64,000 bases of DNA from Haloprofundus halobius. Lineage in GTDB: Archaea > Halobacteriota > Halobacteria > Halobacteriales > Haloferacaceae. Shown piece by piece: positions 4,129-24,560 of the stretch. Within the stretch, counting starts at the first letter, position 1. Each line of letters opens with the position of its first letter. A model generated the notes under the pieces. The model made no database searches. It was not told where the DNA came from and saw only the letters and a list, made by a program, of their open reading frames with translations. Where the stretch lies: NCBI RefSeq assembly GCF_020097835.1, contig NZ_CP083667.1, positions 1-64,000 of the forward strand, written 5' to 3'. Made by a program: the position numbers and the translations under genes.

Positions 4129-4150
4129 GCTCCGGAAGCGGTGGTTTTAT
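4129..4150 (+). repeat. ORB-like repeat at the cdc6 promoter
   Basis: GCTCCGGAAGCGGTGGTTTT, preceded by a half-site GAGCTTCGGA at 4118. It lies 27-48 bp upstream of the cdc6 start, so Cdc6 binding here would overlap its own promoter. Autoregulation is plausible but inferred. Confidence 0.6.
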
Positions 4151-4176
4151 CTCGGTCCTCTATGTGCGTTTCTCAC

Positions 4177-5433
4177 ATGGGGATGTTCGAGCGAGACCGC
4201 CTCGTGTTCGCCGATGCCGAACCTCTGGACGACTCGTACGAACCGGAGGACATCCGCGAGCGGGACAAGGAACTCGCGAAGTACCAGCGCGCGCTGCAGC
4301 CGATAATCGACAACCGCCCGACCTCGAACATCTTCCTGTACGGGAAGACGGGGACGGGGAAGACAGTCGCGACCAAGTTCATGCTCTCACACCTCGAACA
4401 CGACGCCGAGAAGTACGACGACATCGACCTTTCGACCGTCTGGGTCGGCTGTGAGAACCTCTCCTCGTCGTATCAGGTCGCAGTATCGCTCGTGAACGAA
4501 CTCCGCCTCGAGAAGGGAAAGGACAGAATCAGCACGACTGGCTACTCTCAACAACGGGTCTTCGACATCCTCTACGAGGAGCTCGACTCCTTCGGTGACA
4601 CCGTCGTCATCGTCCTCGACGAGATCGACAACATCGGCGACTCCGACGACATCCTCTACGGACTTCCCCGCGCTCGCTCGAACGGCTACGTCGAGAACGT
4701 CCAGCCCGTCATCGTCGGAATCAGCAACGACTTCCAGTTCAGAGACAGCCTCTCCCCGAAGGTCAAAGACACACTCGCCGAAAAGGAGATCCTCTTTCCG
4801 CCGTATGACGCGAATCAACTCCGTTCGATTCTGGAGCCGCGGGCGGAGAAAGCGTTTCACGACGATGTACTCGAAGGCGACGTCGTTCCGCTGTGTGCTG
4901 CGCTCTCCGCCCAAGACACCGGCTCCGCTCGCCAGGCGATTCGGCTCCTCCGGGAAGCGGGCGAACTCGCACAGGCCGAGGACGTCGCCACCGTCACCGA
5001 CGACCACGTCCGAGGCGCACAGGACGAACTCGAAAAGAACCAACTGTACGAGGGAATGCAGGAACTCACGACGCAGGGTCACGTCGTCCTCTGCGCGCTC
5101 GCGTACCACGAAGCGCGTGACGATGTGCCGGTTCGCTCTCGCGACCTCTACGAGCAGTACGTGAATATCTGTAATCAGCTCGACGCCGATAGCGTGAGCG
5201 GTCGTCGAGTTCGCGACCACCTCTCCGATCTTAACATGCTCGGACTGATCAACGTCTACGAACGAAACGAGGGGCTCTCCGCCGGCCGGTATCACGAGTA
5301 CGAACTCAATGTACCGCTGGATGCGGTGCTCAACGTATTGCTCTCGATCTCTCGGTTCGAGGAGATTGCCGAATCGATTCAGTCGAACGCGACTCAGAAC
5401 GACGTCCTTCAGTCGGATATCTCCGATTACTGA
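4177..5433 (+). CDS. cdc6: Orc1/Cdc6 replication initiator
   Basis: A 418-aa archaeal Orc1/Cdc6-type AAA+ protein that binds ORBs and loads the replicative helicase. Walker A GKTGTGKT is at residues 56-63 and Walker B IVLDEIDNI at about 144-152. The AAA+ lid follows, with a C-terminal winged-helix domain (about 310-400) for DNA binding. I chose MGMFERD at 4177; the frame is open to 4141, but the extra 12 residues run into the ORB. The length fits the family. ORBs flank it on both sides, so it very likely serves this origin. Confidence 0.93.
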   Translation: MGMFERDRLVFADAEPLDDSYEPEDIRERDKELAKYQRALQPIIDNRPTSNIFLYGKTGTGKTVATKFMLSHLEHDAEKYDDIDLSTVWVGCENLSSSYQVAVSLVNELRLEKGKDRISTTGYSQQRVFDILYEELDSFGDTVVIVLDEIDNIGDSDDILYGLPRARSNGYVENVQPVIVGISNDFQFRDSLSPKVKDTLAEKEILFPPYDANQLRSILEPRAEKAFHDDVLEGDVVPLCAALSAQDTGSARQAIRLLREAGELAQAEDVATVTDDHVRGAQDELEKNQLYEGMQELTTQGHVVLCALAYHEARDDVPVRSRDLYEQYVNICNQLDADSVSGRRVRDHLSDLNMLGLINVYERNEGLSAGRYHEYELNVPLDAVLNVLLSISRFEEIAESIQSNATQNDVLQSDISDY

Positions 5434-11111: not shown

Positions 11112-12125
11112 TCACGTGATGGAGTGAGTAGTACATTCAATAGTAAACGTCTCTGTTGACCCGCCTGGAAGGCAATTGGCAGTTCCGTTTTCAATAGCTT
11201 CCTTAAGGCCTGCGTTGGGTATTGATGTCGACGGTTCAAGCCCGATGTTGTAGTTTCGACCGAAAAACGGGGCCTCAGTAAACCCTCCGAAAGGTTGCCA
11301 GTACCAGAGATACTCAAAAAGATCCTCTGGGAAGACCACATTCACTCCAAGATTTATCTCCGGATTTTCTACTGTATAGCACCCCTCTTTCAAGTCCGTG
11401 AGCACAACTAAGTCATGAACCCGCTCAGATTTCGGCGGGAACGAGCGTAAATCGACTTCCTGACCATCGAACTCACAAATCGGCCATTCGAATGTCTCGC
11501 CCGCTGGGAAGCGAGCCTCTGGAATGTCGTGATCGGGATCTACGAGAACTGTGTCACAGGGAACGGAGAGCGACGCTTCTGGGGAAATTAGTGGCTCTCC
11601 AAGGGCGATGTGTTGTAACCAAGAGTAATCAACAGCGACTTCACTTTGATTCCGTACAGATTCGGTTACAATGAGCGAAGATTGACCAGCTTTAAGACTC
11701 AGTTCGCGCGTTATCTGCAGGGGATATCGAGTCAATGAAGTCTCTAATCTAACACACACTCGATCAACTGTGTCTTCAACGATAATGGCATCCCATGGGA
11801 CGAGCGTTGCCTCTCCATGAAGCGCGAGCGGCGCTCCATGGATTGTGGACGGGCCTCCGGCCCCCGGTAAGACATCTTGCCATCCACCGGGATAGTGGTC
11901 CAAGAACCGGAAATGATCATCATGACCTCCGATCGGCCCCTGGGCTGGAGATCGCCACTCGTGCGGTGCCTCGAAAAGAATATTTGTATCAGTCCGTTTG
12001 TCTCGAATCTCTGTTATATCGGCGCCCTTCCCGGCCAGCACTTCGACACGAAGGTGTGCATTTTCGAGGATAACGACGTCGAGTCCCTTCTTCTGATACT
12101 GGTCCGTAATCCGGCAATTGCGCAT
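11112..12125 (-). CDS. Aldose 1-epimerase/DUF4432-like protein
   Basis: A 337-aa protein of the galactose-mutarotase-like beta-sandwich superfamily. Sequence cues are VEVLAGKGADITEIRDKRTD near the N-terminus (usual 'G..I..I..K....ILW'), HGAPLALHGEA (putative His region), and a long run of beta strands ending in FTIECTTHS. The family interconverts sugar anomers or binds modified hexoses. Next to an IclR regulator and GH38 glycosidase genes, it probably supplies the right anomer of the released sugar to a dehydrogenase. It faces away from the GH38 genes and may share regulation with the IclR gene just upstream. Confidence 0.75.
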   Translation of the reverse strand: MRNCRITDQYQKKGLDVVILENAHLRVEVLAGKGADITEIRDKRTDTNILFEAPHEWRSPAQGPIGGHDDHFRFLDHYPGGWQDVLPGAGGPSTIHGAPLALHGEATLVPWDAIIVEDTVDRVCVRLETSLTRYPLQITRELSLKAGQSSLIVTESVRNQSEVAVDYSWLQHIALGEPLISPEASLSVPCDTVLVDPDHDIPEARFPAGETFEWPICEFDGQEVDLRSFPPKSERVHDLVVLTDLKEGCYTVENPEINLGVNVVFPEDLFEYLWYWQPFGGFTEAPFFGRNYNIGLEPSTSIPNAGLKEAIENGTANCLPGGSTETFTIECTTHSIT

Positions 12126-12247: not shown

Positions 12248-13012
12248 TCAGTAATGAGTCAATTTTAATTCAATTACATTAGCGTGGTTTCGCAGCGTGT
12301 CGAGTAACTCATTTTCTATTCGTTCGTCGGAGAATCGAGTTTTCGGTCCCGAGACGGATATCGCGCCAACAACCGCCTTTTCATTGAGGATGGGCACGGC
12401 GACGGCTCGGATGCTCTCCCAGTGTTCTTCATCCTCTATAGCGTATCCTTGATCACGGATCTTGGCTAAATCCTCGAACAGTACATCGGGTTCCGTTATG
12501 GTTTGTGCGGTCGATTCTGGTAAACTGTAAGTATCGATGATTTCCTGAATACGTTCTTCTGGCTGGTGAGCGAGTAACGCTTTTCCGAGAGAGGTCCAGT
12601 GCATATTGGTGAACTCACCGATTTGAGCGTTATCGTAGATTGCGTCTCTCCCTTCAGAGATATAGAGGAGAACTCGCTTTCCGTTCTCTTCGACTCCTAG
12701 ATTAGCCACCTCTCCTGTTTCCTCTGCGAGCGCATCGATTTCCGATTCGGCGACGTGGAAAATGTCGAAATTTTGTCTGACCGCTACTCCGTGATCAAGA
12801 AACTGTAAACTGAGCCTGTACTCGTTGTCTTCCTTGTAGAGATACCCCGCTTCGTACATCGTCTTGAGGTGAATGTAGGCTGTGCTCTTCGGGAGATCGA
12901 GACTCGATGCGAGTTCAGTCACGGTCTTAGGTCCCCTGTCCCTCAGATGTCTAACTATCATAAACGCAGTTTCAACGCCCTGGAGAGTTTGTCCCTTGGT
13001 CTCTTCTGGCAT
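12248..13012 (-). CDS. IclR-family transcriptional regulator
   Basis: A 254-aa protein. The winged helix is at residues about 8-65 (KTVTELASSLDLPKSTAYIH) and the IclR effector domain at about 80-250 (GEVANLGVEENGKRVLLYIS, MHWTSLGKALLAHQPEE, AVAVPILNEKAVVGAISVSG). The length is normal. It is divergent from the GH38 pair with 129 bp between. IclR proteins are usually local regulators of sugar or aromatic catabolic genes, so it probably controls the GH38 and transporter genes. The ligand is unknown. Confidence 0.9.
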   Translation of the reverse strand: MPEETKGQTLQGVETAFMIVRHLRDRGPKTVTELASSLDLPKSTAYIHLKTMYEAGYLYKEDNEYRLSLQFLDHGVAVRQNFDIFHVAESEIDALAEETGEVANLGVEENGKRVLLYISEGRDAIYDNAQIGEFTNMHWTSLGKALLAHQPEERIQEIIDTYSLPESTAQTITEPDVLFEDLAKIRDQGYAIEDEEHWESIRAVAVPILNEKAVVGAISVSGPKTRFSDERIENELLDTLRNHANVIELKLTHY

Positions 13013-13141: not shown

Positions 13142-14383
13142 ATGACACAAGTAGACACAATACAATTGATAAACCATTGTCACACCGACATCGGGTATAC
13201 TCATGACCAACCCGTGCTGTGGGACCTCCAGCGCCGATTTATCGACGACGGTATTGCTGCGGCTGCGGAGGATTTAGAAGTGGACAGTCCGGACGCGTTT
13301 CATTGGACGATCGAAACGACGGGACCGCTGCTTCGATGGCTTGAGACTGCGAGCGACAAGCAGATCGAACAATTACAGCGACTGGAGGAGGCCGGACGCG
13401 TCGAAGTCACCGGAATGCTGGCGAATATCACGCCGTTGTACGGTCCGGCTCAGACCGACGAGACACTCCGGCCAATCCAACGCCTTCGGGACGAGTACGG
13501 TTTCGACATCAAGTACGGGATGAATTGTGACGTGAACGGTCAGAATTGGTCGTTTCCGGATGCACTCCTCGACGCCGGTATCGAGGGATTCTCCATGGCC
13601 ATCAACGAACACTTCGGCGGGGCACCGCTCAAGCGTCCCGAGGTGTTCCGGTGGGAAGCACCGAGCGGTCGAGAGCTCCTTGCTTTCAACGGGTATCACT
13701 ATTCGACGGGACATCAGATGGGTATCGGTCGCGATCTTGAGGAGCTACGAGACAAGTGGTGGCCCCGGGTCGAACGCCAACTTGAAGCCGCAGAGTATCC
13801 ACTCTCGAAGCTCCTGATCCAGAGCTATCACCCGTTCGGCGATAATGGACCCGCGTATCGCGAATTCTCCGACTTCATCCGTGAATGGAACGATCTGGAC
13901 GCCGTTCTCGACGGTGAACTTCCGGTGATCGAGATGGCGACGCCGGCAGACTGGTGGGAGCACGTCCAGTCTAACGTTGACTGTCTGGAAGCCTACAGCG
14001 GTGACTGGACGGACTTCTGGAATTTCGGAAGCATAAGCAGCGCCCGAGAAATGTCAATAAACAGGGAAAATCGGCGTCGGCTCCTTACTGCCGATGCACT
14101 CGAAGCGGGGCTGGGCGCGCTCGGCGCTGCAGATCATCAGCGCGAACCGACGCGGCGATCGGCACCGGAAACCCGCGATGATGCCTGGTGGGCGACCCAC
14201 TTCTTCGACGAGCATACGTGGGGTTCTGATACCGCAGTAAGTGTTCCGGAGGGAGAAGATGCAGCAAGTCAGTGGAATCATAAAGCCAACTATGCCTACC
14301 ATGGTCGGAGCCTCAGCATGATGCGACAGCGGGATAGTATCGCCGAACTTGCGCGACGAGTGTCCACGGGTGATACCCAATGA
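13142..14383 (+). CDS. GH38 alpha-mannosidase-like protein, N-terminal catalytic part
   Basis: 413 aa corresponding to the catalytic domain and linker of GH38 enzymes (retaining alpha-mannosidases, Zn-dependent). The metal motif HCHTDIGYTHD is at residues 12-22 (H12, H14, D16). The predicted nucleophile region is KYGMNCDVNGQNW with Asp130. SYHPFGDNG (about 225) and DEHTWGSD (about 360) are further active-site segments. There is no signal peptide, so it acts in the cytosol on imported oligosaccharide. The protein stops exactly where the C-terminal beta-sandwich begins in one-piece homologues. That part is the next gene, overlapping by 4 bp (ATGA). Confidence 0.85.
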   Translation: MTQVDTIQLINHCHTDIGYTHDQPVLWDLQRRFIDDGIAAAAEDLEVDSPDAFHWTIETTGPLLRWLETASDKQIEQLQRLEEAGRVEVTGMLANITPLYGPAQTDETLRPIQRLRDEYGFDIKYGMNCDVNGQNWSFPDALLDAGIEGFSMAINEHFGGAPLKRPEVFRWEAPSGRELLAFNGYHYSTGHQMGIGRDLEELRDKWWPRVERQLEAAEYPLSKLLIQSYHPFGDNGPAYREFSDFIREWNDLDAVLDGELPVIEMATPADWWEHVQSNVDCLEAYSGDWTDFWNFGSISSAREMSINRENRRRLLTADALEAGLGALGAADHQREPTRRSAPETRDDAWWATHFFDEHTWGSDTAVSVPEGEDAASQWNHKANYAYHGRSLSMMRQRDSIAELARRVSTGDTQ

Positions 14384-15924
14384 GTACCGACGGAATCTTC
14401 CTCTTCAACCCCCTCCCCTGGGAGCGGGAACTGTCCGGACCGATCGCGGATCAGGTGGTCAACCCCCGCGGCGTCCCCAACGACGAAACTTCGGGACGCC
14501 ACTTTCAGGATCGTGACAACCACCGACTCGCTCCGTCGGGCTTCGTCGATGACGAAGACATCGAGTCGATGTTCAGCCCTGGTGGGTACTACCTCCCTTC
14601 GACGGCGGTGCCCGGATACGGGTGGACAGTCGTTCCGCGAGACGAACTGATCTCGATCGAAGGAAGTTCGTTCGACGAACGGTCGACCGTCGAAACCGAT
14701 CGGTACGTTCTGACCTTCGACAGAGACAGCGGTGGGATCGCGAGCTGGTACGACAAAGATCGGAACTGCGAGTGGGTCGATCACTCGTCGGAATATCCGC
14801 TCGCCGGTTTCGTTCACGAGGAAGTCGTCGATAACGAAACGGATCGTCCGCGGAAGCGGCTCTTCGATTATCGTCCCGAGGTAGAAGACCGCCACGCCGC
14901 TGTCGCCGGTATCCTCGATGCCCCACGCGGTTTCCGGCCGGATTGGCACGGAGCTCGATCCGGGCCCGATCGGGTTCTTCAACATCGCGTCTTCGATGGC
15001 CCGGAGAGATACGAGGTACGACAGATACTGGAGACGCCGCAGGTCGAGAGTAACGTTGTGCTCCAGTTCTCGATCCCGACCGACGGGGACACGATAACGG
15101 TTGATGCGCAGTGGGATATGGGTCTCCGGACCCAACCCGAAGCGACGTATCTGGCGTTCCCGTTCGACCTCGACGACCCGACTCCCCGCCTCGATGTCGG
15201 CGGACAGGCGATGGAACCGGGCGAAGATCAACTCCCCGGGTCGGTCTACGACTACTATACCGTCCAGTACTGGGCTGACCTCTCCGACACCGATCGCGGA
15301 ATGACGATCGGTTGCCCCTTGAATCCGCTCGTACAACTGGGTGACTTCAACTTCGCCGAAAATCAGTGGGAGTTCGACCTCGAACACCCGCTGTTCCTCG
15401 GGTGGGTGACGAATAATTACTGGGACACCAATTTCCGGGCTCACCAACCGGGTCGCGTGCGCGCACAGTATCATCTCACTCCGCACGACGAGTTCGACGA
15501 AGCGTTGGCACACAAATCGGGTCTAGAGGCGACGCACTACGAGCCGCTGGCACAGACACTAGGTGAGGGAACGATGGACGAACCGCCGATCGAAGGATCC
15601 GGGCGGTTCCTCAATCTGCCCGAACTGCCAGTGCTTGTGACGCAGATTCGGCCGGTTGATGCTGACACGGGAGTCTTCCATCCGGGGATCGAGACCGTCG
15701 ATGATCGTGACGATCGTATCCTCGTTTCCCTCCGGAACGCCTCGGATGACGGCCGTACGGCTCAGATCGGTCACGGTGAACTCGTGATTGATGACGCCGC
15801 GCGCACAGATCCGACCGGGAAAATCACTAAAGAGAACCTTCGAGTAACTGAGAACGGCGTCGATGTTCGAATGGAGGCCCGCGAGACGGTTACTGTCCGC
15901 CTTGACGCCGGGTTGAACGAGTAA
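14380..15924 (+). CDS. GH38-like protein, C-terminal beta-sandwich part
   Basis: A 514-aa protein starting with GIFLFNPLPWERE, the phrase that marks the start of the GH38 C-terminal region in single-chain enzymes. Mostly beta-strand sequence follows (FDRDSGGIASWYDKDRNCEW, the usual 'G.I.S..D' motif; TYLAFPFDL; YDYYTVQYWADLSD). It lacks the catalytic HxHxD segment. The 4-bp overlap with the upstream gene suggests coupled translation and assembly of a two-subunit enzyme. Alternatively a single-gene ancestor was split by a small indel. The intact length of both halves favours functional subunits. Confidence 0.8.
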   Translation: MSTDGIFLFNPLPWERELSGPIADQVVNPRGVPNDETSGRHFQDRDNHRLAPSGFVDDEDIESMFSPGGYYLPSTAVPGYGWTVVPRDELISIEGSSFDERSTVETDRYVLTFDRDSGGIASWYDKDRNCEWVDHSSEYPLAGFVHEEVVDNETDRPRKRLFDYRPEVEDRHAAVAGILDAPRGFRPDWHGARSGPDRVLQHRVFDGPERYEVRQILETPQVESNVVLQFSIPTDGDTITVDAQWDMGLRTQPEATYLAFPFDLDDPTPRLDVGGQAMEPGEDQLPGSVYDYYTVQYWADLSDTDRGMTIGCPLNPLVQLGDFNFAENQWEFDLEHPLFLGWVTNNYWDTNFRAHQPGRVRAQYHLTPHDEFDEALAHKSGLEATHYEPLAQTLGEGTMDEPPIEGSGRFLNLPELPVLVTQIRPVDADTGVFHPGIETVDDRDDRILVSLRNASDDGRTAQIGHGELVIDDAARTDPTGKITKENLRVTENGVDVRMEARETVTVRLDAGLNE

Positions 15925-15950: not shown

Positions 15951-17048
15951 TTACGGATTCGGCTCCGTCAGTTCCGACCGGGACGAGGTGAGCGCTTCGC
16001 CGTCGGAGAACAGATGCACTCGTTCGTCTGGGATATCGAACCGGAGTTCGTCTCTGTCTTTCAGGGTCCCGTCGCGCTGTGCCTCGGCGATCAACTCTAC
16101 GTTACCAATTTCCAAGTACAGGAGAATATCGGTTCCCGTCGGCTCGACGACTCTTACGTCCGCGTGATATTGCCCCGTTTCCGTGATGTCGATGTGCTCC
16201 GGTCGAATACCCATCCGGATGTCCGTCGCGTCTGTCCCGGATACGGCATCTAACAGCTCGTCCGTAAGTTCGTAGCTGAAGCCGTCAAATTGAATCGTCC
16301 GCTGGTCTCGATCTAATCGCCCGTCGATGAAATTCATGCTGGGTGATCCGATGAATCCCGCGACGAATTCGTTTGCCGGATCATCGTGGAGCTCCTCCGG
16401 TGTTCCGACTTGTTGGACCTCTCCCTTGTCGAGAACCATGATCTTTGTTCCCATGGTCATCGCCTCGACCTGATCGTGGGTCACGTACACGAACGTCGTC
16501 CCGATCTGCTCATGTAGCTGCTTTAGTTCCGTGCGCATCTGGGTCCGCAACTTGGCGTCGAGATTCGACAGCGGCTCATCGAGCAGGAACACGCTAGGGT
16601 CGCGAACGATCGAGCGACCGAGGGCGACGCGCTGTTGTTGGCCGCCGGACAGCTCCGAGGGACTTCGATCGAGAAGCTCCTCGATGTCGAGGATGCGCGC
16701 CGCTTCCTCAACTTTGCGCTTTATTTCGGAGTCGGAAATACCCGATACTTTGAGCGAGAGACCCATGTTCTGCCGAACGGTCATGTGCGGGTAGAGAGCG
16801 TAATTCTGGAACACCATCGCGATGTCTCGCTCGGCCGGCTCCAGGTCGGTTACGTTTCGACCACCGATGAGGATCTCGCCTTCAGTCGCGTCCTCCAGAC
16901 CGGCGACACACCGTAGGGTCGTTGATTTCCCTGACCCCGACGGCCCGAGCAAAACGAGGAAATCGTTGTTATCGGCTTCGATCGATACGTCATCGGCGGC
17001 GACGACTTCGCTAAATCGCTTGGTAAGATTTTGTATTTGTAACGACAT
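15951..17048 (-). CDS. ABC transporter ATP-binding protein (MalK/UgpC type)
   Basis: 365 aa. Walker A GPSGSGKST is at about 35-43, Q-loop FQNYALYPHMTV at about 81-92, signature LSGGQQQR at about 133-140, Walker B VFLLDEPLSNLDAKLR, and H-loop YVTHDQ. A C-terminal TOBE/OB regulatory domain (about 240-365) is typical of carbohydrate importers of the MalK group. It is the last gene of the minus-strand sugar block, 44 bp after the binding-protein gene, and energises the two permeases at 21.5-23.3 kb. Confidence 0.92.
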   Translation of the reverse strand: MSLQIQNLTKRFSEVVAADDVSIEADNNDFLVLLGPSGSGKSTTLRCVAGLEDATEGEILIGGRNVTDLEPAERDIAMVFQNYALYPHMTVRQNMGLSLKVSGISDSEIKRKVEEAARILDIEELLDRSPSELSGGQQQRVALGRSIVRDPSVFLLDEPLSNLDAKLRTQMRTELKQLHEQIGTTFVYVTHDQVEAMTMGTKIMVLDKGEVQQVGTPEELHDDPANEFVAGFIGSPSMNFIDGRLDRDQRTIQFDGFSYELTDELLDAVSGTDATDIRMGIRPEHIDITETGQYHADVRVVEPTGTDILLYLEIGNVELIAEAQRDGTLKDRDELRFDIPDERVHLFSDGEALTSSRSELTEPNP

Positions 17049-17092
17049 TGTTTAATTCGTATAGGTAACGAAATATTGGCACGTTCTACGGG

Positions 17093-18433
17093 TTACTCGT
17101 ACACGCGCTGGCGTTCATTCTCGATCTTCTCAGCAACCTGTTGGACTCGATCGGGATACTGGAGGAGCTGTTCGAGCGTCTCAGTCGCTGGTTGCGCAAC
17201 CTCCGGTGAGGTGTTTTCCCAGTATCGGAGCGAGAACTGGATGTCTTCTTCGTTGATCGTATTCACCAGATTCCTCTTATTCTCGTCGAGGAACGAGGGA
17301 TCAACTTCCTGATTAGTGGGCGGGAACCCTAGCTCTTGATTCACCGTCGATTGGAACTCGGGACTTAACACAAGGTCAATGAACTCGCGCGTCATCTCTT
17401 CGTTTTCCGTCCCTGCGTGGGGGACGATTGGTCCCGGTTCGATAATCATCCGCGGATTCTCATCTCCACTTATATTTGGCAGGATGAACCATCCCATATC
17501 AGAGAACTCGAGATCGTTCTCAGAGAAAATCCCACTAAGCCAGTCTCCGCTAGCATGCATTACGTATTCTCCGTTCGCCAATTGCTGTTGGGCTGTTGGT
17601 GATTCTAGCTGAAACATCCTTTCTGCTGGCCCGAAGTATCCGTTCCGTTGATACTCAGCCATTTTCTCGAGCGCCCAAATAGCAGTATCGTCTGTGTACT
17701 TTGCTTCGCCGCGGCATAGTGCGTTGTAGAACTCTGGATCCTCGTGAATGAGGAATTCTTCGAACCAAACGAACGTCGGCCAGGAAGATTCCCCTAGTGG
17801 TATTTGGATCGGTATCTTGTCTGTCTCTGCGATGTCGGCGCAGATCTGTTCGAAGTCCGACCACGTCTCGGGTTCTGAGAGACCCATCTCGTCGAACGTA
17901 GCCTTATGATACCACACAACCCAGTAACTGAGGTAGTACGGGACAGCGTAGGCGCTTCCATCGGCTGAGAATTGCTGCATGAGACTTTCGTCATACTCAC
18001 CATTCTCAATGTGGGCTTCCCACTGCTCTGTGATGTCCAATGCGTAACCGTCCGAAGCGATGTCGCGAAGGCGCTGACCGGTCCACCACGTAAAAAGGGT
18101 GGGACCATCAGTAGTCCCGAAAACTGGCCGCAGCGCACCTTGGTACGAATCCGTACTACCGTATGACGTGACAGACACCTCGGCGGGCGCCTCTCCTTCG
18201 ATTTCCGAAAAGCTGGTTTTGAAACCGTCGTCCCAATCCGGCTTGTCGTGCCAGAACGCTGCTTGAGTGCTTCCCCCGTCTCCACCCCCGCTACTGCCAT
18301 TTTCCCCAGTATTTTCGCCGTCACCGGACCCGCTGCATCCTGCCAACCCTAGCATTCCACCTGCGGCGAGCGCCTTCAGAAGGTGACGCCGATCCTGACT
18401 AGCTGCACTCTGACCTCTGTTACCGTCGGGCAT
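17093..18433 (-). CDS. Extracellular sugar-binding lipoprotein (ABC type)
   Basis: 446 aa. The N-terminus has a twin-arginine motif (DRRHLLKAL), a hydrophobic stretch and a lipobox LAGC, so it should be exported by Tat and lipid-anchored. A Gly/Ser/Asp-rich linker of about 30 residues follows, as usual for haloarchaeal binding proteins. The mature part is a family-1 solute-binding fold (TFDEMGLSEPETWSDFEQIC is the usual hinge phrase; FTWWTGQRLRDIASDGYALD). The substrate is probably an oligosaccharide containing mannose, inferred from neighbours. A TATA-like sequence lies about 28 nt upstream. Confidence 0.88.
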   Translation of the reverse strand: MPDGNRGQSAASQDRRHLLKALAAGGMLGLAGCSGSGDGENTGENGSSGGGDGGSTQAAFWHDKPDWDDGFKTSFSEIEGEAPAEVSVTSYGSTDSYQGALRPVFGTTDGPTLFTWWTGQRLRDIASDGYALDITEQWEAHIENGEYDESLMQQFSADGSAYAVPYYLSYWVVWYHKATFDEMGLSEPETWSDFEQICADIAETDKIPIQIPLGESSWPTFVWFEEFLIHEDPEFYNALCRGEAKYTDDTAIWALEKMAEYQRNGYFGPAERMFQLESPTAQQQLANGEYVMHASGDWLSGIFSENDLEFSDMGWFILPNISGDENPRMIIEPGPIVPHAGTENEEMTREFIDLVLSPEFQSTVNQELGFPPTNQEVDPSFLDENKRNLVNTINEEDIQFSLRYWENTSPEVAQPATETLEQLLQYPDRVQQVAEKIENERQRVYE

Positions 18434-18598: not shown

Positions 18599-19381
18599 TC
18601 AGTATCCGCCCGCGAGATATCCGCCGTCAACCAAGAGCTGGGCACCCGTAATCCATTCCGCTTCCTCGCTTACGAAGAAACTGACGGCATTAGCGATGTC
18701 TCGTGGTTCGCCGAGACGCGGTAGTGGAGTATTTCGTTCCTGTCGCTCCATCGTTTCTTGGTTGTTTAGGTCCTGCATTGGCGTCTTGATAACGCCTGGA
18801 AGAATCGTGTTGACGGTCACGCCGTCGTCTGCAACTTCCATGGCGAGGTCGCGGGTGAAATTCACGATACCAGCTTTGGTTGATGCGTATGCCGGCCCCC
18901 CTCCACCGAAATGGGCGTTAACGCTGCTAATGTTCACAATACGGCCCGCATCTGAGCCAGTAATGTGTGGTAGTGCGTACTTCGCGGTCAGAAAGTATGC
19001 GGTGAGATTGACATCCAGCTGCCGTTGCCAATCATCTCTCGAGAGTGACAGGGTCGTGCCCGGAATTAGGATTCCCGCGTTATTGATGAGGATATCGATT
19101 CGACCAAACTCGTCGACCACTTCCTCGACAGTAGTCTCAATATCGGCTTCGTCCGTGAGGTCCGTTTCTATAAAGACGGCGTCGCCGTGTTCCTCTTCTC
19201 GAATGGCTTCGTCCGTTGGCTTCGTCACGTTCGTATCGTAGTGTTTTCCCGACTTTGGGGCGTGGCGTTTATCGACAACGGCAACGCTGAACCCGTCTTC
19301 CGCGAGGCGAAGAGCGATTCCGCGGCCAATACCCGAACTCCCACCAGTAACAACGGCTACTCGACCATCATGCGCAGTCAT
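18599..19381 (-). CDS. SDR-family sugar dehydrogenase
   Basis: 260 aa, classical short-chain dehydrogenase. The nucleotide motif TGGSSGIGRG is at about 12-21, NNAG at about 98, catalytic Ser in ISSVNAH and YASTK (Tyr/Lys). I chose the start at 19381 (MTAHDGRVAVVTGG); the frame is open much further upstream but only antisense to the next gene. Members oxidise aldoses or aldonates. Beside a lactonase and mannonate dehydratase it could be a mannose 1-dehydrogenase or a mannonate/fructuronate oxidoreductase. The first fits the lactonase better, which is inference. Confidence 0.85.
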   Translation of the reverse strand: MTAHDGRVAVVTGGSSGIGRGIALRLAEDGFSVAVVDKRHAPKSGKHYDTNVTKPTDEAIREEEHGDAVFIETDLTDEADIETTVEEVVDEFGRIDILINNAGILIPGTTLSLSRDDWQRQLDVNLTAYFLTAKYALPHITGSDAGRIVNISSVNAHFGGGGPAYASTKAGIVNFTRDLAMEVADDGVTVNTILPGVIKTPMQDLNNQETMERQERNTPLPRLGEPRDIANAVSFFVSEEAEWITGAQLLVDGGYLAGGY

Positions 19382-19454
19382 ATCAACTACCAACCCACAA
19401 ATCGGTGAAAAATCTATCGGGTATACAATCCGAGTTTGGTTGGGTTTACGTTCA

Positions 19455-20486
19455 CTAATCGGCGTTTTCGGCTGCTCTGAGCATTCCACGAATGTATCCG
19501 ATCGTGAATGCGCGACCGCTCGGTCCCCAATCCGCTTCGCCCGCCATCTTCGGAACGTGATCTGGAATGACCATCCCTTCGAACCCCCCCTCGATAAGCG
19601 TCTCCAGTACCTCGTATTCGTCATAGTTGCCCTCATCGATAAACACTTCCTGAAACGAAGGAACGTGGTTCTTGACGTCCCGAAAGTGAACGTAACTGAC
19701 TTTGTTTCGTTGAACGAAAAAGTCCACCATCTCTCGCACCTCCATCTCGCTGTCCATCTCGGAGAGTACTCCAAGCGCTAGCTGAATTTTGTGGTTATCG
19801 CTGGAAACGACTTCCATTGCCCTCCGTAGATTTTCGAAATTTCGAAAGAGACGTGCAATCCCGCCAAGCGACGAGACTGGGGGATCGTCCGGATGGAGCG
19901 CAAGCGTTACTCCCTCCTCTTCCGCAACCGGCAGTACCTCTTCGAGAAAGTATCGGTAATTTTCCCAAATTTCCGACTCGGGATACTCCCGATCATGTGT
20001 CAATGGTGCTTGTTCCATATCCTCCATATCGAACGCCGTCGACGTAGCGCCGCCTCGTCCGGGTCGGTTTAAGGACGACCGCCAGACGCGGTTTGGCATC
20101 CAGTTGTATCCGAGCGTGGTAATCCCCGCACGACCCATATTCTGGATGGTGGCTTTTACGTTCTCGAGTTGCTTCTCTCTCCCGTCTTGACCAAGCATGA
20201 TGTCGTCGTAAAATGAGAGGGGTAAGTTTTCGATAGCACCGAACGTAAAGCCGCGTTCCTCGATAAAGTTCCGAAGGTGGAGAAGTTCCTCAAACGACCA
20301 CTTCGAGTCCGTGGAGAGAGGTAATTCTTCGTCGGGAAGATACGACTGGGCGTACGGATGGACGATGATGTGAGAAACGTTTAGCTGTTTTGCGAACTGA
20401 AGTCGTTCGTTCGTCGGATTGTTAAACCGAAGCGAAGGGTAGATTCGGCTCTCAAGTCTCTGGGCCTTTCCCGCCTTGCGACTCAT
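19455..20486 (-). CDS. uxuA: Mannonate dehydratase
   Basis: 343 aa, UxuA-type xylose-isomerase-like TIM barrel that dehydrates D-mannonate to 2-keto-3-deoxy-D-gluconate. Diagnostic segments are TTLGYNWMPNRVWR, LALHPDDPPVSSLGG (metal-binding His/Asp) and YVHFRDVKN. The C-terminal VIPDHVPKM is the usual 'DHVP' signature. I chose MSRKAG at 20486; a frame extension of seven residues to 20507 is unlikely because it overlaps a TATA-like AATAATAT about 28 nt upstream. It forms the core of the proposed mannose oxidation route. Confidence 0.88.
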   Translation of the reverse strand: MSRKAGKAQRLESRIYPSLRFNNPTNERLQFAKQLNVSHIIVHPYAQSYLPDEELPLSTDSKWSFEELLHLRNFIEERGFTFGAIENLPLSFYDDIMLGQDGREKQLENVKATIQNMGRAGITTLGYNWMPNRVWRSSLNRPGRGGATSTAFDMEDMEQAPLTHDREYPESEIWENYRYFLEEVLPVAEEEGVTLALHPDDPPVSSLGGIARLFRNFENLRRAMEVVSSDNHKIQLALGVLSEMDSEMEVREMVDFFVQRNKVSYVHFRDVKNHVPSFQEVFIDEGNYDEYEVLETLIEGGFEGMVIPDHVPKMAGEADWGPSGRAFTIGYIRGMLRAAENAD

Positions 20487-20543
20487 ACTATGAGGACACA
20501 AGCTCAAAGATATTATTAGTTACTTTTCCTGTGGGTGGGAGAT

Positions 20544-21440
20544 TCACTCACCGCTGAGGTCAACCGCTGTCAGGTGCCAGAGGCCGAGGTTTGCGATATA
20601 GAGGGTGTGCCCGGTCGGTCCGCCAAAGCTGATATTCGTAGGATTGCCGATAATAAGTCCGTCCGGATCCTTGATGATGCATTCGATTTCCTGATCTGCC
20701 GTCGGCACCCGGGGATCAGCGAGCCGATACACGGCGTTATCGCCGATGGATGCCGCATAGAGTCTGTCCTTCCAGTCGAATCCGAGTCCATCGACCATCC
20801 CGAACCCGTCGGTGACGTGGGTCACCGCTTCGGTAGTGCCGTCGACGAGTTCCACGGCAGAAACCTCGTGCAATCCCGTCTCCGCCACGTAGAGCCGTGA
20901 CTCGTCCGGGGAGAGCGCGAGTCCGTTCGGAAACGCCGATGGTTCTTCGGTCAAGATCCGGCCCGTACCGTCAGGTTCAACGACGTAGATGCACCCGTCG
21001 GCGTTCGCCATCTCGCTCCGTTCACCGGAGTCCGAGATGTACAACCGCCCCGCCGAATCGAAGACACAGTAGTTCGGGTGACGCGGAGCCGTGTCGCTGT
21101 CGCCGGCGACGACCACTTCCAGATCACCGGCCACACCGTCGCTGTCGATCGGAAGGCGGAAAACCGCGTGTTGTTGGAAGTCACAGGCGTAGAGCGCTCC
21201 GTCGGGTCCAATCGTAACACCGAGTACGAATCCGCCGGTGTTTCCGATTTCGTCGACGACGTTCGTTTCCGGTTGTATCCGATACAACTGCCCGTTCTCA
21301 CCACCCGCGTAGAGTGTTCCGTCGTCTGCAACGGCTACGTCTTCGGGGTGGTCCAACCGCGTTCTAAGCCACGGATCGGCGCCTATGATCGCTGCATCCG
21401 AGAGTCGACATACGTGTGATTGTGGGCCGTTAGCAACCAT
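20544..21440 (-). CDS. SMP-30/gluconolactonase-like sugar lactonase
   Basis: 298-aa six-bladed beta propeller of the SMP-30/LRE family. Repeating blade phrases are EDVAVADDGTLYAGGENGQLYRI, GVTIGPDGALYACDFQQHAV, FPNGLALSPDESRLYVAE and MVDGLGFDWKDRLYAASIGD. The conserved Asn and Asp of the metal centre (NYCVFDSAGRLYISDSG, FPNGLALS) are present. It would hydrolyse an aldonolactone such as mannono-lactone to the acid. It is cotranscribed with the permeases upstream (48 bp gap) and uxuA downstream. Confidence 0.85.
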   Translation of the reverse strand: MVANGPQSHVCRLSDAAIIGADPWLRTRLDHPEDVAVADDGTLYAGGENGQLYRIQPETNVVDEIGNTGGFVLGVTIGPDGALYACDFQQHAVFRLPIDSDGVAGDLEVVVAGDSDTAPRHPNYCVFDSAGRLYISDSGERSEMANADGCIYVVEPDGTGRILTEEPSAFPNGLALSPDESRLYVAETGLHEVSAVELVDGTTEAVTHVTDGFGMVDGLGFDWKDRLYAASIGDNAVYRLADPRVPTADQEIECIIKDPDGLIIGNPTNISFGGPTGHTLYIANLGLWHLTAVDLSGE

Positions 21441-21488: not shown

Positions 21489-22379
21489 CTATCCCTTCTG
21501 TGTCCCGGCCAGCAACCCGCGGACGAAGTGCTTCTGGAAGAGGAGGAAGACGACGAGCGGCGGGCCGACGGTGAGCAGCGTTCCGGCGGCGAGCACCGTC
21601 CAGTCGGCGCTTCGACCGCCGAGGAGAGCGAGGGCAGTCGCCATGGGGCGAGCGTCCGGACTCGACGTGAGAACTAGCCCGAACAGGAACTCGTTCCAGA
21701 TCCAGATCCACTGGAAAATGAGTGCCACAGCGAGTGCCGGTTTGGCCAGCGGCAGGTAGATCTTCCAGTAGATCTGAAATTTCGAGAGCCCGTCGATTCG
21801 AGCGGCCTCGTACAGGGAGTTCGGTATAGTAATAAAGTAGTTGCGCAGGACGAAGGCGGCGAAGGGGATCGCGATCGTGATGTAAATGATCGAAACGCCG
21901 GTCTTCGTGTTGTAGAGCCCGGTCATGTTGGCCACCTTGACAAGCGGGATGAGGTACATCTGGAACGGGAAGAAGGTGAACAGCAAGATCAGGAAGAGGA
22001 TGCCATCCCGGTACGGGATGTCAAGTTGAGCGATCGTAAAGCCCGCGAGTGATGCTAAAAACACCGCGATCACGGCCCCAACGGATGCGTAAATCAGGCT
22101 GTTGATCGCGTAGTTGCCGAAGTTCCCGTCCGACCACGCCTCCCCGAGATTGCTGATTAACGCGATGCTTTCAGGGAGAGACCAGAAGGCCCCCTGGGGG
22201 AGACTGGGTTGTACCGCGATGTATAGTAACGCCAACAGGGGAATCAACCAGAGGACAGAAATTAAGACGATGAGTCCCCCCCGAAGCACGTTGAACCCGT
22301 TCAAGTTTTTGAGGTACTCGGCGACGTCGTTTTTCGCTCCGTCGACTGTTGGCTGTCCGGGTCGCTCGTCAGTCGCCAT
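21489..22379 (-). CDS. Sugar ABC transporter permease (MalG type)
   Basis: 296 aa with six predicted membrane helices and the EAA loop YEAARIDGLSKFQIYWKIYLPL (about 195-216), which contacts the ATPase. The N-terminus is cytoplasmic. It overlaps the MalF-type gene by 1 bp, so the two are translationally coupled. Confidence 0.9.
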   Translation of the reverse strand: MATDERPGQPTVDGAKNDVAEYLKNLNGFNVLRGGLIVLISVLWLIPLLALLYIAVQPSLPQGAFWSLPESIALISNLGEAWSDGNFGNYAINSLIYASVGAVIAVFLASLAGFTIAQLDIPYRDGILFLILLFTFFPFQMYLIPLVKVANMTGLYNTKTGVSIIYITIAIPFAAFVLRNYFITIPNSLYEAARIDGLSKFQIYWKIYLPLAKPALAVALIFQWIWIWNEFLFGLVLTSSPDARPMATALALLGGRSADWTVLAAGTLLTVGPPLVVFLLFQKHFVRGLLAGTQKG

Positions 22380-23332
22380 CAGACGTCCACCTCCCGCTGG
22401 ATATTGTACCGGATGTAAATCACCGTCACGCCGATAACCAAGATCGTCAGCACGTTAGCCACGGCCGCTCCGGCACCGAACCGGTACTGTCCGAAGGCCA
22501 GTCGATACATGGTGACGGCGAGCGTCTCCGACGAATTGAACGGCCCGCCGCCGGTCATGACGTAAATGATTCCGAAGATCTTGAGCACATTGAAGAGGAT
22601 CGTCGCCACGACGAGCGTAGTAAACGGCCGAAGCATCGGAAACGTAAGATAGCGGAATCGCTGCAGTCTCGACATGCCGTCGATCCGAGTCGCCTCGATC
22701 AGATGGGTCGGGATGGAGCGAAGCCCGGCCAAGTAGATCACCATTGCGAAGGCGCTGAACAACCACACCTGTGCGACCATCATGGCGAACGTGTTCACTT
22801 TCGGAATTCCCAACCACGGGCGAGCGTACTCTCCGAGGCCGATCGTGTGGAGAAATAGGTTGAGGAGACCGACGTCTCCGCTGTAGATGAGCTGCCACAT
22901 GATCGCGACGGCGACGAACGAGATCGCGTAGGGGAGGAAAAAGAGCGTCTTGAAAAAAGACTCCCCGGTGACGTCGTCGATCAGCAGTGCCAGCCCCAAT
23001 CCGGCAATCGGCGGGAAGACGACCATCGCCACGGTCCACATCAGCGTGTTGATGACGGAATTCACCAGGTCCGGACTACTGAAGAATAGTTCGTAGTTCT
23101 CGAAACCGACAAACGTCTCGGGCCATCCAGTACCGTCCCACGTGAAAAAGCTCACGTACACGTTGAAGACGATCGGGATCCCGAGGACCAATACTAACAG
23201 CAAAATCGGTGCGAACAGGAAGAGATACTCCGCTATTGGGTCGAGTTTGATCTGTAGTCGCTGCCACGCGGCTTTCCACCTGGGTGCATCACTACTCACC
23301 CTTGAATCCGTGCTACTGGCTGTCGAGCTCAT
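22379..23332 (-). CDS. Sugar ABC transporter permease (MalF type)
   Basis: 317 aa with about six membrane helices. The EAA loop is IEATRIDGMSRLQRFRYLTF (about 217-236) and the N-terminal helix VFNVYVSFFTWDGTG is typical of CUT1 permeases. It is the first gene of the minus-strand block. A TATA-like ATTAAATA at 23355-23362 lies about 26 nt upstream of its start, implying a leaderless operon promoter. Confidence 0.9.
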   Translation of the reverse strand: MSSTASSTDSRVSSDAPRWKAAWQRLQIKLDPIAEYLFLFAPILLLVLVLGIPIVFNVYVSFFTWDGTGWPETFVGFENYELFFSSPDLVNSVINTLMWTVAMVVFPPIAGLGLALLIDDVTGESFFKTLFFLPYAISFVAVAIMWQLIYSGDVGLLNLFLHTIGLGEYARPWLGIPKVNTFAMMVAQVWLFSAFAMVIYLAGLRSIPTHLIEATRIDGMSRLQRFRYLTFPMLRPFTTLVVATILFNVLKIFGIIYVMTGGGPFNSSETLAVTMYRLAFGQYRFGAGAAVANVLTILVIGVTVIYIRYNIQREVDV

Positions 23333-23547: not shown

Positions 23548-23865
23548 ATGTTAGGGGTTGACGCCCCACACCTGACCCACCACAAATACCGATATCGAGT
23601 AAACACACGATCTACCAGTCGACTGAAATGTTCAATGGCAGTTTATCGGCGGAGCGATCGATCTGGCAAGGGTAATCTCGACGACAAGGGTCCGAACGTA
23701 TTCAAGTGAACAATCGAAGCGACAGGTCCGTTACTCCATTGGCTTCGACCCGCGTCTGACGACCAGATAGAACGCTTTCAGCGGCTTAAAGACGCCGGGC
23801 ATATCGAGGTCATGGGAATGTTAGCGAACAACACTCCCCTGTTCGGCACGATAGAACTTGTGGAG
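23548..23865 (+). pseudogene. Decayed second copy of the GH38 N-terminal gene
   Basis: Protein-level remnant of the gene at 13142. From an ATG at 23548, VDAPHLTHH aligns with the intact N-terminus. After a shift, NTDIE-stop-THDLP aligns with HTDIGYTHDQP. Then TIEATGPLLHWLRPASDDQI and ERFQRLKDAGHIEVMGMLAN align with residues 61-102 of the intact protein. The Trp codon before TIE is TGA. Even the upstream TATTCGT.TGGTA matches the GH38 promoter area. It is cut off at about 23865 by the IS6-like remnant. This shows that a GH38 gene once stood divergent from the transporter operon. Confidence 0.8.
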
Positions 23866-24560
23866 AGTTTCGGTCGTTACAGTCAAGCTGACCGCTCAAC
23901 TCGTGACGAGTGAGAGCAGTCAAGTATTCCATGCCGTCTACCAGAAACTCGGTGTCTTCGACATCGTGTTTCTCAATGAAGCGATGGAGGAACGCCGTCG
24001 TGGAATCGAGTAGTCTGCATTAGTTCTGACCCGTCACTCTCGGTCTTCTCGATTGCTGCCACATCGTCGCTTTCGGACGATTCTTCGGTCGCCATCGTTT
24101 CAAAGCGGCTCGCCGCAATTGGTGTTCAGAAGCTGCGCTAACCACTCGGTCCTGCGGCGGCTGCACACACCAACCTCCAGAACCAGCTTTGACTCCATGT
24201 TGATGGCGACATAGAGTCACTTCTTCTCGCCATCTACCACAATCTGTTTCTCGTCTACCCCGACCCGCCGTCGGCGGGTCGCTTTGGGCTTCTGAGAGCG
24301 TGTCCAGTATGACGCCCAGGAGGCGACTGAGTTCCAGACCGCGCCTTGAGATTGGACGACGCCGAGCCAGCACAGTACCGCTGCGCCCTCATGCACCAAC
24401 AACCCCATTGAGTGCAGGTGTACCCCGAACATCCTGACGGATATCGGGGTGCGTTCCGTTCTCCCAAACCTCATCAGAGTCCACCGATACGGCCCTCTGA
24501 GCAGGTCTGCGAGATGCAGGGACACAACTCGCTACGACCTGTTCGTTCCTCAAACTCGTT
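23866..24560 (-). pseudogene. IS6-like DDE transposase remnant
   Basis: Minus-strand frames together read as a DDE transposase. EVADLLRGPYRW-type start, FGVHLHSMGLLVHEGAAVLC and VGVDEKQIVVDGEKK (first catalytic Asp) come from 24217-24525. After shifts, LYVAINMESKLVLEVG, AFLHRFIEKHDVEDTEFLVD (second Asp) and SGQLDCNDRN lie between 24210 and 23870. Several frameshifts and stops make it inactive. No clear terminal repeats remain. Its left edge abuts the GH38 remnant. Confidence 0.7.

Follow-up and report, generated by a model that had tools for sequence, protein, structure and literature searches.

Overlapping genes for a probable two-subunit GH38 alpha-mannosidase-type enzyme in haloarchaea

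The heterodimeric beta-galactosidase LacL/LacM of lactic acid bacteria, a member of family GH2, arose when a single-chain glycosidase gene was disrupted into two overlapping genes (PMC4358714), one for a barrel subunit and one for a C-terminal beta subunit (PMC4358714; PMC5145203). Two ORFs can also yield a single product, as in Saccharolobus solfataricus, where the fucA alpha-L-fucosidase (GH29) is made as one full-length chain via -1 programmed frameshifting (PMC8037382). Studies of overlapping gene pairs in Haloferax volcanii and E. coli found strict coupling in 13 of the 14 pairs tested (PMC6728339), and in H. volcanii 45.2% of the pairs spaced by -8 to +10 nt encode the subunits of heteromers, as against 5.6% of distant pairs (PMC10666635). 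The literature that we searched, which had few subscription papers, gave no report of a two-gene, split or heterodimeric GH38 enzyme. Here, we describe a gene pair that is a strong candidate for one.

The window analysed here is a stretch of 64,000 nucleotides at the start of contig NZ_CP083667.1 of Haloprofundus halobius. As an earlier note on this DNA had claimed, it contains two ORFs with an ATGA common to both:

13142..14383, + strand: gene for the putative GH38 N subunit (413 aa, ATG start; alpha/beta catalytic domain and helical bundle)
14380..15924, + strand: gene for the putative GH38 C subunit (514 aa, ATG start; all-beta C-terminal half)
14380..14383, + strand: ATGA stop/start overlap of the N and C genes (overlap of 4 or 8 nt across 11/11 loci)
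14368..14374, + strand: GGGTGAT, a weak Shine-Dalgarno-like motif upstream of the C start (-9.4 kcal/mol with the anti-Shine-Dalgarno sequence)

Both halves carry the annotation 'hypothetical protein', and annotation thus misses such enzymes. We consider it very probable that the two genes together specify one intracellular enzyme of the GH38 exo-alpha-mannosidase type, each gene supplying a subunit. The earlier note had called a two-subunit GH38 plausible, a view strengthened by the conserved split, the overlap and the Shine-Dalgarno motifs described below; the complex and its mannosidase activity are inferred. It had also begun the second ORF at the motif FNPLPWERE; the motif is indeed present, starting at residue 9 (MSTDGIFLFNPLPWERE) and not at residue 1.

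The N half matches the Pfam GH38 N-terminal domain PF01074 with an E value of 1.2e-16 (61.3 bits, against a cut-off of 25). It contains H14, D16, D130, H358 and D234, all invariant in every split and fused relative tested; by analogy with GH38 enzymes, we take the first four to be the zinc and catalytic-nucleophile set and D234 to be the candidate acid/base. The C half scores 21.4 bits against Glyco_hydro_38C (PF07748), below the cut-off of 25 (E 3.4e-4). Neither half matched an NCBIfam model, and no GH2 model matched the pair, which, with an N half that is GH38, is not a GH2 member. A sequence search of both halves against the PDB also gave no match, and structure models were therefore used instead.

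The closest fused relative (locus L008, 55% identical in the N part) gave a model with a mean pLDDT of 89 and a pTM of 0.92, which matches GH38 alpha-mannosidases from end to end (5kbp: Z 26.3, 735 residues aligned). In this model the junction falls in a loop (404-413) that follows the last bundle helix (371-403) and leads into the first strand (414-418) of the beta-sandwich region, in agreement with the earlier statement that the gene is cut at a domain boundary. The complete GH38 fold of alpha/beta domain, helical bundle and beta-sandwiches is found end to end in the L008 model, and residues 1-511 of the window C half, modelled alone with AlphaFold2 (pLDDT 80.8, pTM 0.83), align with the C-terminal halves of solved GH38 enzymes at Z scores up to 20.8. 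That highest score is to Bl_Man38C; residues 395-901 of the Streptococcus pyogenes enzyme 2wyi align at Z 19.5 over 373 residues (3.2 A), and the next-best likeness is to the C-terminal part of LacZ (residues ~726-1023, Z ~15.9). Thus, although the C half lies below the Pfam cut-off, its fold is settled by the structural alignment of the model, according to which it is by itself a complete GH38 C-terminal half.

Comparison of homologues in other Halobacteria, the check that the earlier note had proposed, found the split in every haloarchaeal homologue recovered, which is more than chance would give. All 11 loci found are split (the window, L003, L054, L055, L056, L059, L060, L061, L062, L063 and L070); they come from seven species, and 10 are distinct, since L070 and L060 are near-identical copies in two strains. 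The Haloprofundus halobius genome has a second pair, also split, which is 55.9% identical to the window pair in N and 44.5-48.9% in C. Plasmid records of Halomontanus rarus hold three pairs in strain TS33 and one in strain KZCA124 (a literature search on Halomontanus gave no direct paper), and the pairs of Halomontanus and Haladaptatus sit on megaplasmids. Pairs were also met in plasmid records of Haladaptatus salinisoli and Haloprofundus halobius which, judged by their coordinates, are apparently the same as our entries G419 and G430. The pair is rare in haloarchaea, being present in 3 of the 86 genera in the class sample: the N half was found in 4/391 sampled genomes of the class and the C half in the same four, neither half occurring without the other, while the N half was found in 6/392 sampled genomes of the order. 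The overlap is maintained throughout, at 4 nt (ATGA) in six loci and 8 nt in five, which gives two frame relations. Within the clade of L054, L061, the paralogue, L062 and L063, the longer overlap is seen in L061; it is also seen beyond that clade, in L056, L059, L060 and L070, so the overlap was kept while the frame switched more than once.

Outside the haloarchaea, 84,980 species genomes were scanned and yielded 39 relatives; these belong to Chloroflexota, Deinococcota, Bacillota, Planctomycetota, Verrucomicrobiota, Alphaproteobacteria and other groups. All 37 bacterial relatives that could be read through the junction (including one plasmid record) are one ORF in one frame. L009 and L015, on contigs that end early, keep a single frame as far as the contig end. 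Left out of the 37 are the broken L046 and two copies, L065 and the second one in L021, that are damaged in the N part yet continuous at the junction. These last two, at 5004-7534 of L065 (Deinococcus sp. AJ005) and 4293-6972 of L021 (an Anaerolineales MAG), are fused genes with frame breaks inside the N part, which we read as decay or sequencing errors, away from the haloarchaeal split point. Haloarchaea also have a different GH38 subfamily whose members are single chains (open frames 1096 and 1140, and GH38-annotated neighbours in L059, L060 and L070), so a GH38 in a salty cytoplasm need not be split.

The history of the split was traced in trees of the two halves. In an IQ-TREE analysis of N and C together (36 rows), the 10 split loci form one clade with support of 100/100, joined by a fused sister group at 98/95. 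Fused groups lie on either side of the deepest (midpoint) branch, and the fused state is therefore most simply ancestral. The N-only tree of all rows supports the split clade weakly (54), and with a smaller set the N-only and C-only trees each recover it at 100/100. On these phylogenies, the split is one old fission inside a single-chain family. Both halves are, by their substitution rates, under purifying selection: between L062 and L063, dN and dS are 0.031 and 0.35 for N and 0.030 and 0.24 for C, and between L059 and L060 they are 0.059 and 1.61 for N and 0.115 and 1.38 for C. The ratio of C to N divergence is 1.46 in the split clade and 1.41 (near) to 1.46 (all) in fused relatives, which indicates that the fission did not relax the C half, and the distances of N and C are correlated (r=0.93). 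Among the columns that are invariant in fused relatives, 34/40 in N and 14/17 in C are still invariant in the split loci.

How might the second chain be started? Upstream of the C start, the energy of pairing with the anti-Shine-Dalgarno sequence ranges from -9.3 to -16.8 kcal/mol in ten loci, against -4.4 to -10.5 kcal/mol at the same place in fused genes, and in 6/10 loci it is stronger than in every segment tested within either gene. Among such segments, 4.4% of those in N and 1.1% of those in C equal or beat the GGGTGAT of the window pair (-9.4), which lies inside the range of the fused controls; relatives reach -14.8 to -16.8. The N starts show no strong Shine-Dalgarno sequence in the energy check, as expected given that haloarchaeal leading genes do not use one for de novo initiation (PMC6728339). 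All 11 split loci fall within the -8 to +10 nt range of spacing cited above.

The genes around the window pair are as follows:

11112..12125, - strand: DUF4432 protein (PF14486, E 4.4e-24)
12248..13012, - strand: divergent IclR-family regulator, likely the local regulator (PF01614, E 1.9e-40)
15951..18433, - strand: ABC sugar-transporter ATPase (15951-17048) and solute-binding protein (17093-18433) (PF00005, PF17912 (MalK OB), PF01547)
18599..21440, - strand: SDR dehydrogenase, UxuA-like mannonate dehydratase (19455-20507) and SMP-30-type lactonase (20544-21440) (Pfam/NCBIfam)
21489..23332, - strand: two ABC sugar-transporter permeases (PF00528)

A Gfo/Idh oxidoreductase is also among the neighbours. 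In L060 and L070, too, a DUF4432 gene accompanies the split pair, there immediately downstream of it. The run at 18599-21440 is a candidate oxidative pathway for mannose or another hexose; a literature search on mannose oxidation in archaea found no direct paper. The fold and these neighbours suggest an alpha-mannoside as the substrate of the window pair. The neighbours of other split loci are fucosidases, GH20, a sulfatase, GH97 or further sugar genes, and substrates may accordingly vary. In L059 (3495-7901) the pair is beside alpha-L-fucosidases and a sulfatase, and in L003 (7360-9012) it is beside a sulfatase, which suggests that some strains employ the enzyme on glycans that are sulfated or fucosylated.

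Further along the window, at 23674-23871 (+ strand), lies a decayed fragment of a GH38 N half, ~55% identical to residues 44-109 and interrupted by an in-frame TGA, which we read as a dead duplicate of the N gene; transposase-like debris is suspected just downstream, at 24100-24500. ParA-like (273-1148) and Orc1/Cdc6-like (4141-5433) ORFs were noticed by eye near the start of the 422.8-kb contig, which is probably a megaplasmid. A megaplasmid would fit the patchy occurrence of the pair and the fact that those of Halomontanus and Haladaptatus lie on plasmids.

If the bacterial relatives are all single chains, and if copies do die in this region (as the fragment at 23674-23871 attests), perhaps the pair is simply a single-chain GH38 gene broken by a recent frameshift mutation, an assembly error or pseudogene decay. 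Against this, the same split recurs across seven species (11 loci), and the Haloprofundus halobius genome has it in two divergent paralogues; the split loci form one fully supported clade, selection acts on both halves, and the junction has a start codon and a Shine-Dalgarno motif. The recent indel that the earlier note had kept as its alternative is refuted by 11/11 split haloarchaeal loci facing 37/37 junction-spanning bacterial relatives that are single ORFs. The conserved split and the selection rule out a recent indel or pseudogene, and we leave this explanation a vanishingly small chance. The fucA gene provides a precedent for an archaeal glycosidase whose ORFs are joined into one chain by programmed ribosomal frameshifting (PMC8037382), and the ORFs studied here do overlap. 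Their offset, however, is 2 in six loci and 1 in the five with the 8-nt overlap, and the two frame relations would demand opposite shifts. No slippery X XXY YYZ heptamer or 5-nt homopolymer occurs in the 90 nt before any N stop, and upstream of its start the C frame of the window pair is open for only 6 nt, and that of the paralogue for 3 nt, which leaves almost no room for a frameshift. Moreover, most junctions have a strong Shine-Dalgarno sequence and a start codon. The missing slippery sites, the changing frame and the short shared open stretch leave no route for a programmed frameshift, which we reject as extremely improbable.

Granted two chains, must they still work together? The halves could have become separate proteins, for example a stand-alone hydrolase (N) and a carbohydrate-binding or mutarotase-like protein (C), considering that the putative zinc and catalytic residues are in the N half and that the C half is structurally like galactose mutarotase and the C-terminal domains of LacZ. 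We judge this unlikely, since N and C are always adjacent, overlapping and co-inherited, the C/N rate ratio is the same as in fused enzymes, and 14/17 of the C columns invariant in fused enzymes have stayed so. Subunits might also be swapped among paralogous pairs to give mixed N/C enzymes. Several genomes have divergent pairs, among them two in that of H. halobius and three in Halomontanus TS33, and yet translational coupling would favour cognate assembly. We hold such exchange to be very improbable.

The best explanation for the gene pair, that it encodes two subunits of one enzyme, would run as follows. A bacterial-type single-chain ancestor gene would have entered the haloarchaea and been cut once, in the loop that separates the helical bundle from the first beta strand. 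The N subunit would keep the zinc site and the catalytic acids, while the C subunit, the beta-sandwich half, would pack on N and help to shape the active site, by analogy with GH38 structures. Ribosomes that had finished N would re-initiate at the C start that overlaps it, making N and C side by side in near-equal amounts, so that the halves could assemble while being made. The enzyme would cleave alpha-mannosides brought in by the adjoining ABC importer, and oxidation of the freed sugar to a keto-deoxy acid would fall to the adjoining dehydrogenase, lactonase and mannonate dehydratase: imported alpha-mannoside to mannose, mannonolactone, mannonate and 2-keto-3-deoxygluconate. A bolder version, which we regard as a long shot, is that assembly of this fission-made heteromer needs translational coupling and that genomes with several pairs could mix N and C and so widen their substrate range.

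Among other GH38 enzymes, those of Enterococcus faecalis (5kbp) and S. pyogenes (2wyi) resemble in fold both the fused relative, at Z 26, and the C half, at Z ~19. Unlike the split pair, each is one gene and one chain, and enzymes of this type are ~14% identical to the split-pair subfamily in structural alignment. Bovine lysosomal alpha-mannosidase (1o7d, of which chains A and D were matched) is, like the split pair, a GH38 enzyme in several chains, and its deposition as separate chains indicates that GH38 can exist in this form. The bovine chains are cut after translation from one precursor, whereas those of the split pair come from separate genes.

The closest analogue of the split pair is LacL/LacM, as an analogy and not as membership. 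In both, a single-chain gene has undergone fission into two overlapping genes, and the window C half structurally matches the corresponding C-terminal region of LacZ (~726-1023). The two differ in family (GH38 versus GH2), barrel type, chemistry and domain of the host, and the LacLM heteromer is biochemically proven, whereas the GH38 pair is known here from sequence and models. If the proposed subunits are real, GH38 would be a second glycosidase family, after GH2 with LacLM, in which the C-terminal beta half is a subunit of its own, and nature would have provided in the pair a clean way to ask whether gene overlap drives co-translational assembly in archaea. Like fucA, the split GH38 is an archaeal glycosidase in two ORFs; unlike fucA, it lacks a slippery site, varies in its frame relation and has a proper start site. 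Conserved split genes in archaea, then, need not imply frameshifting.
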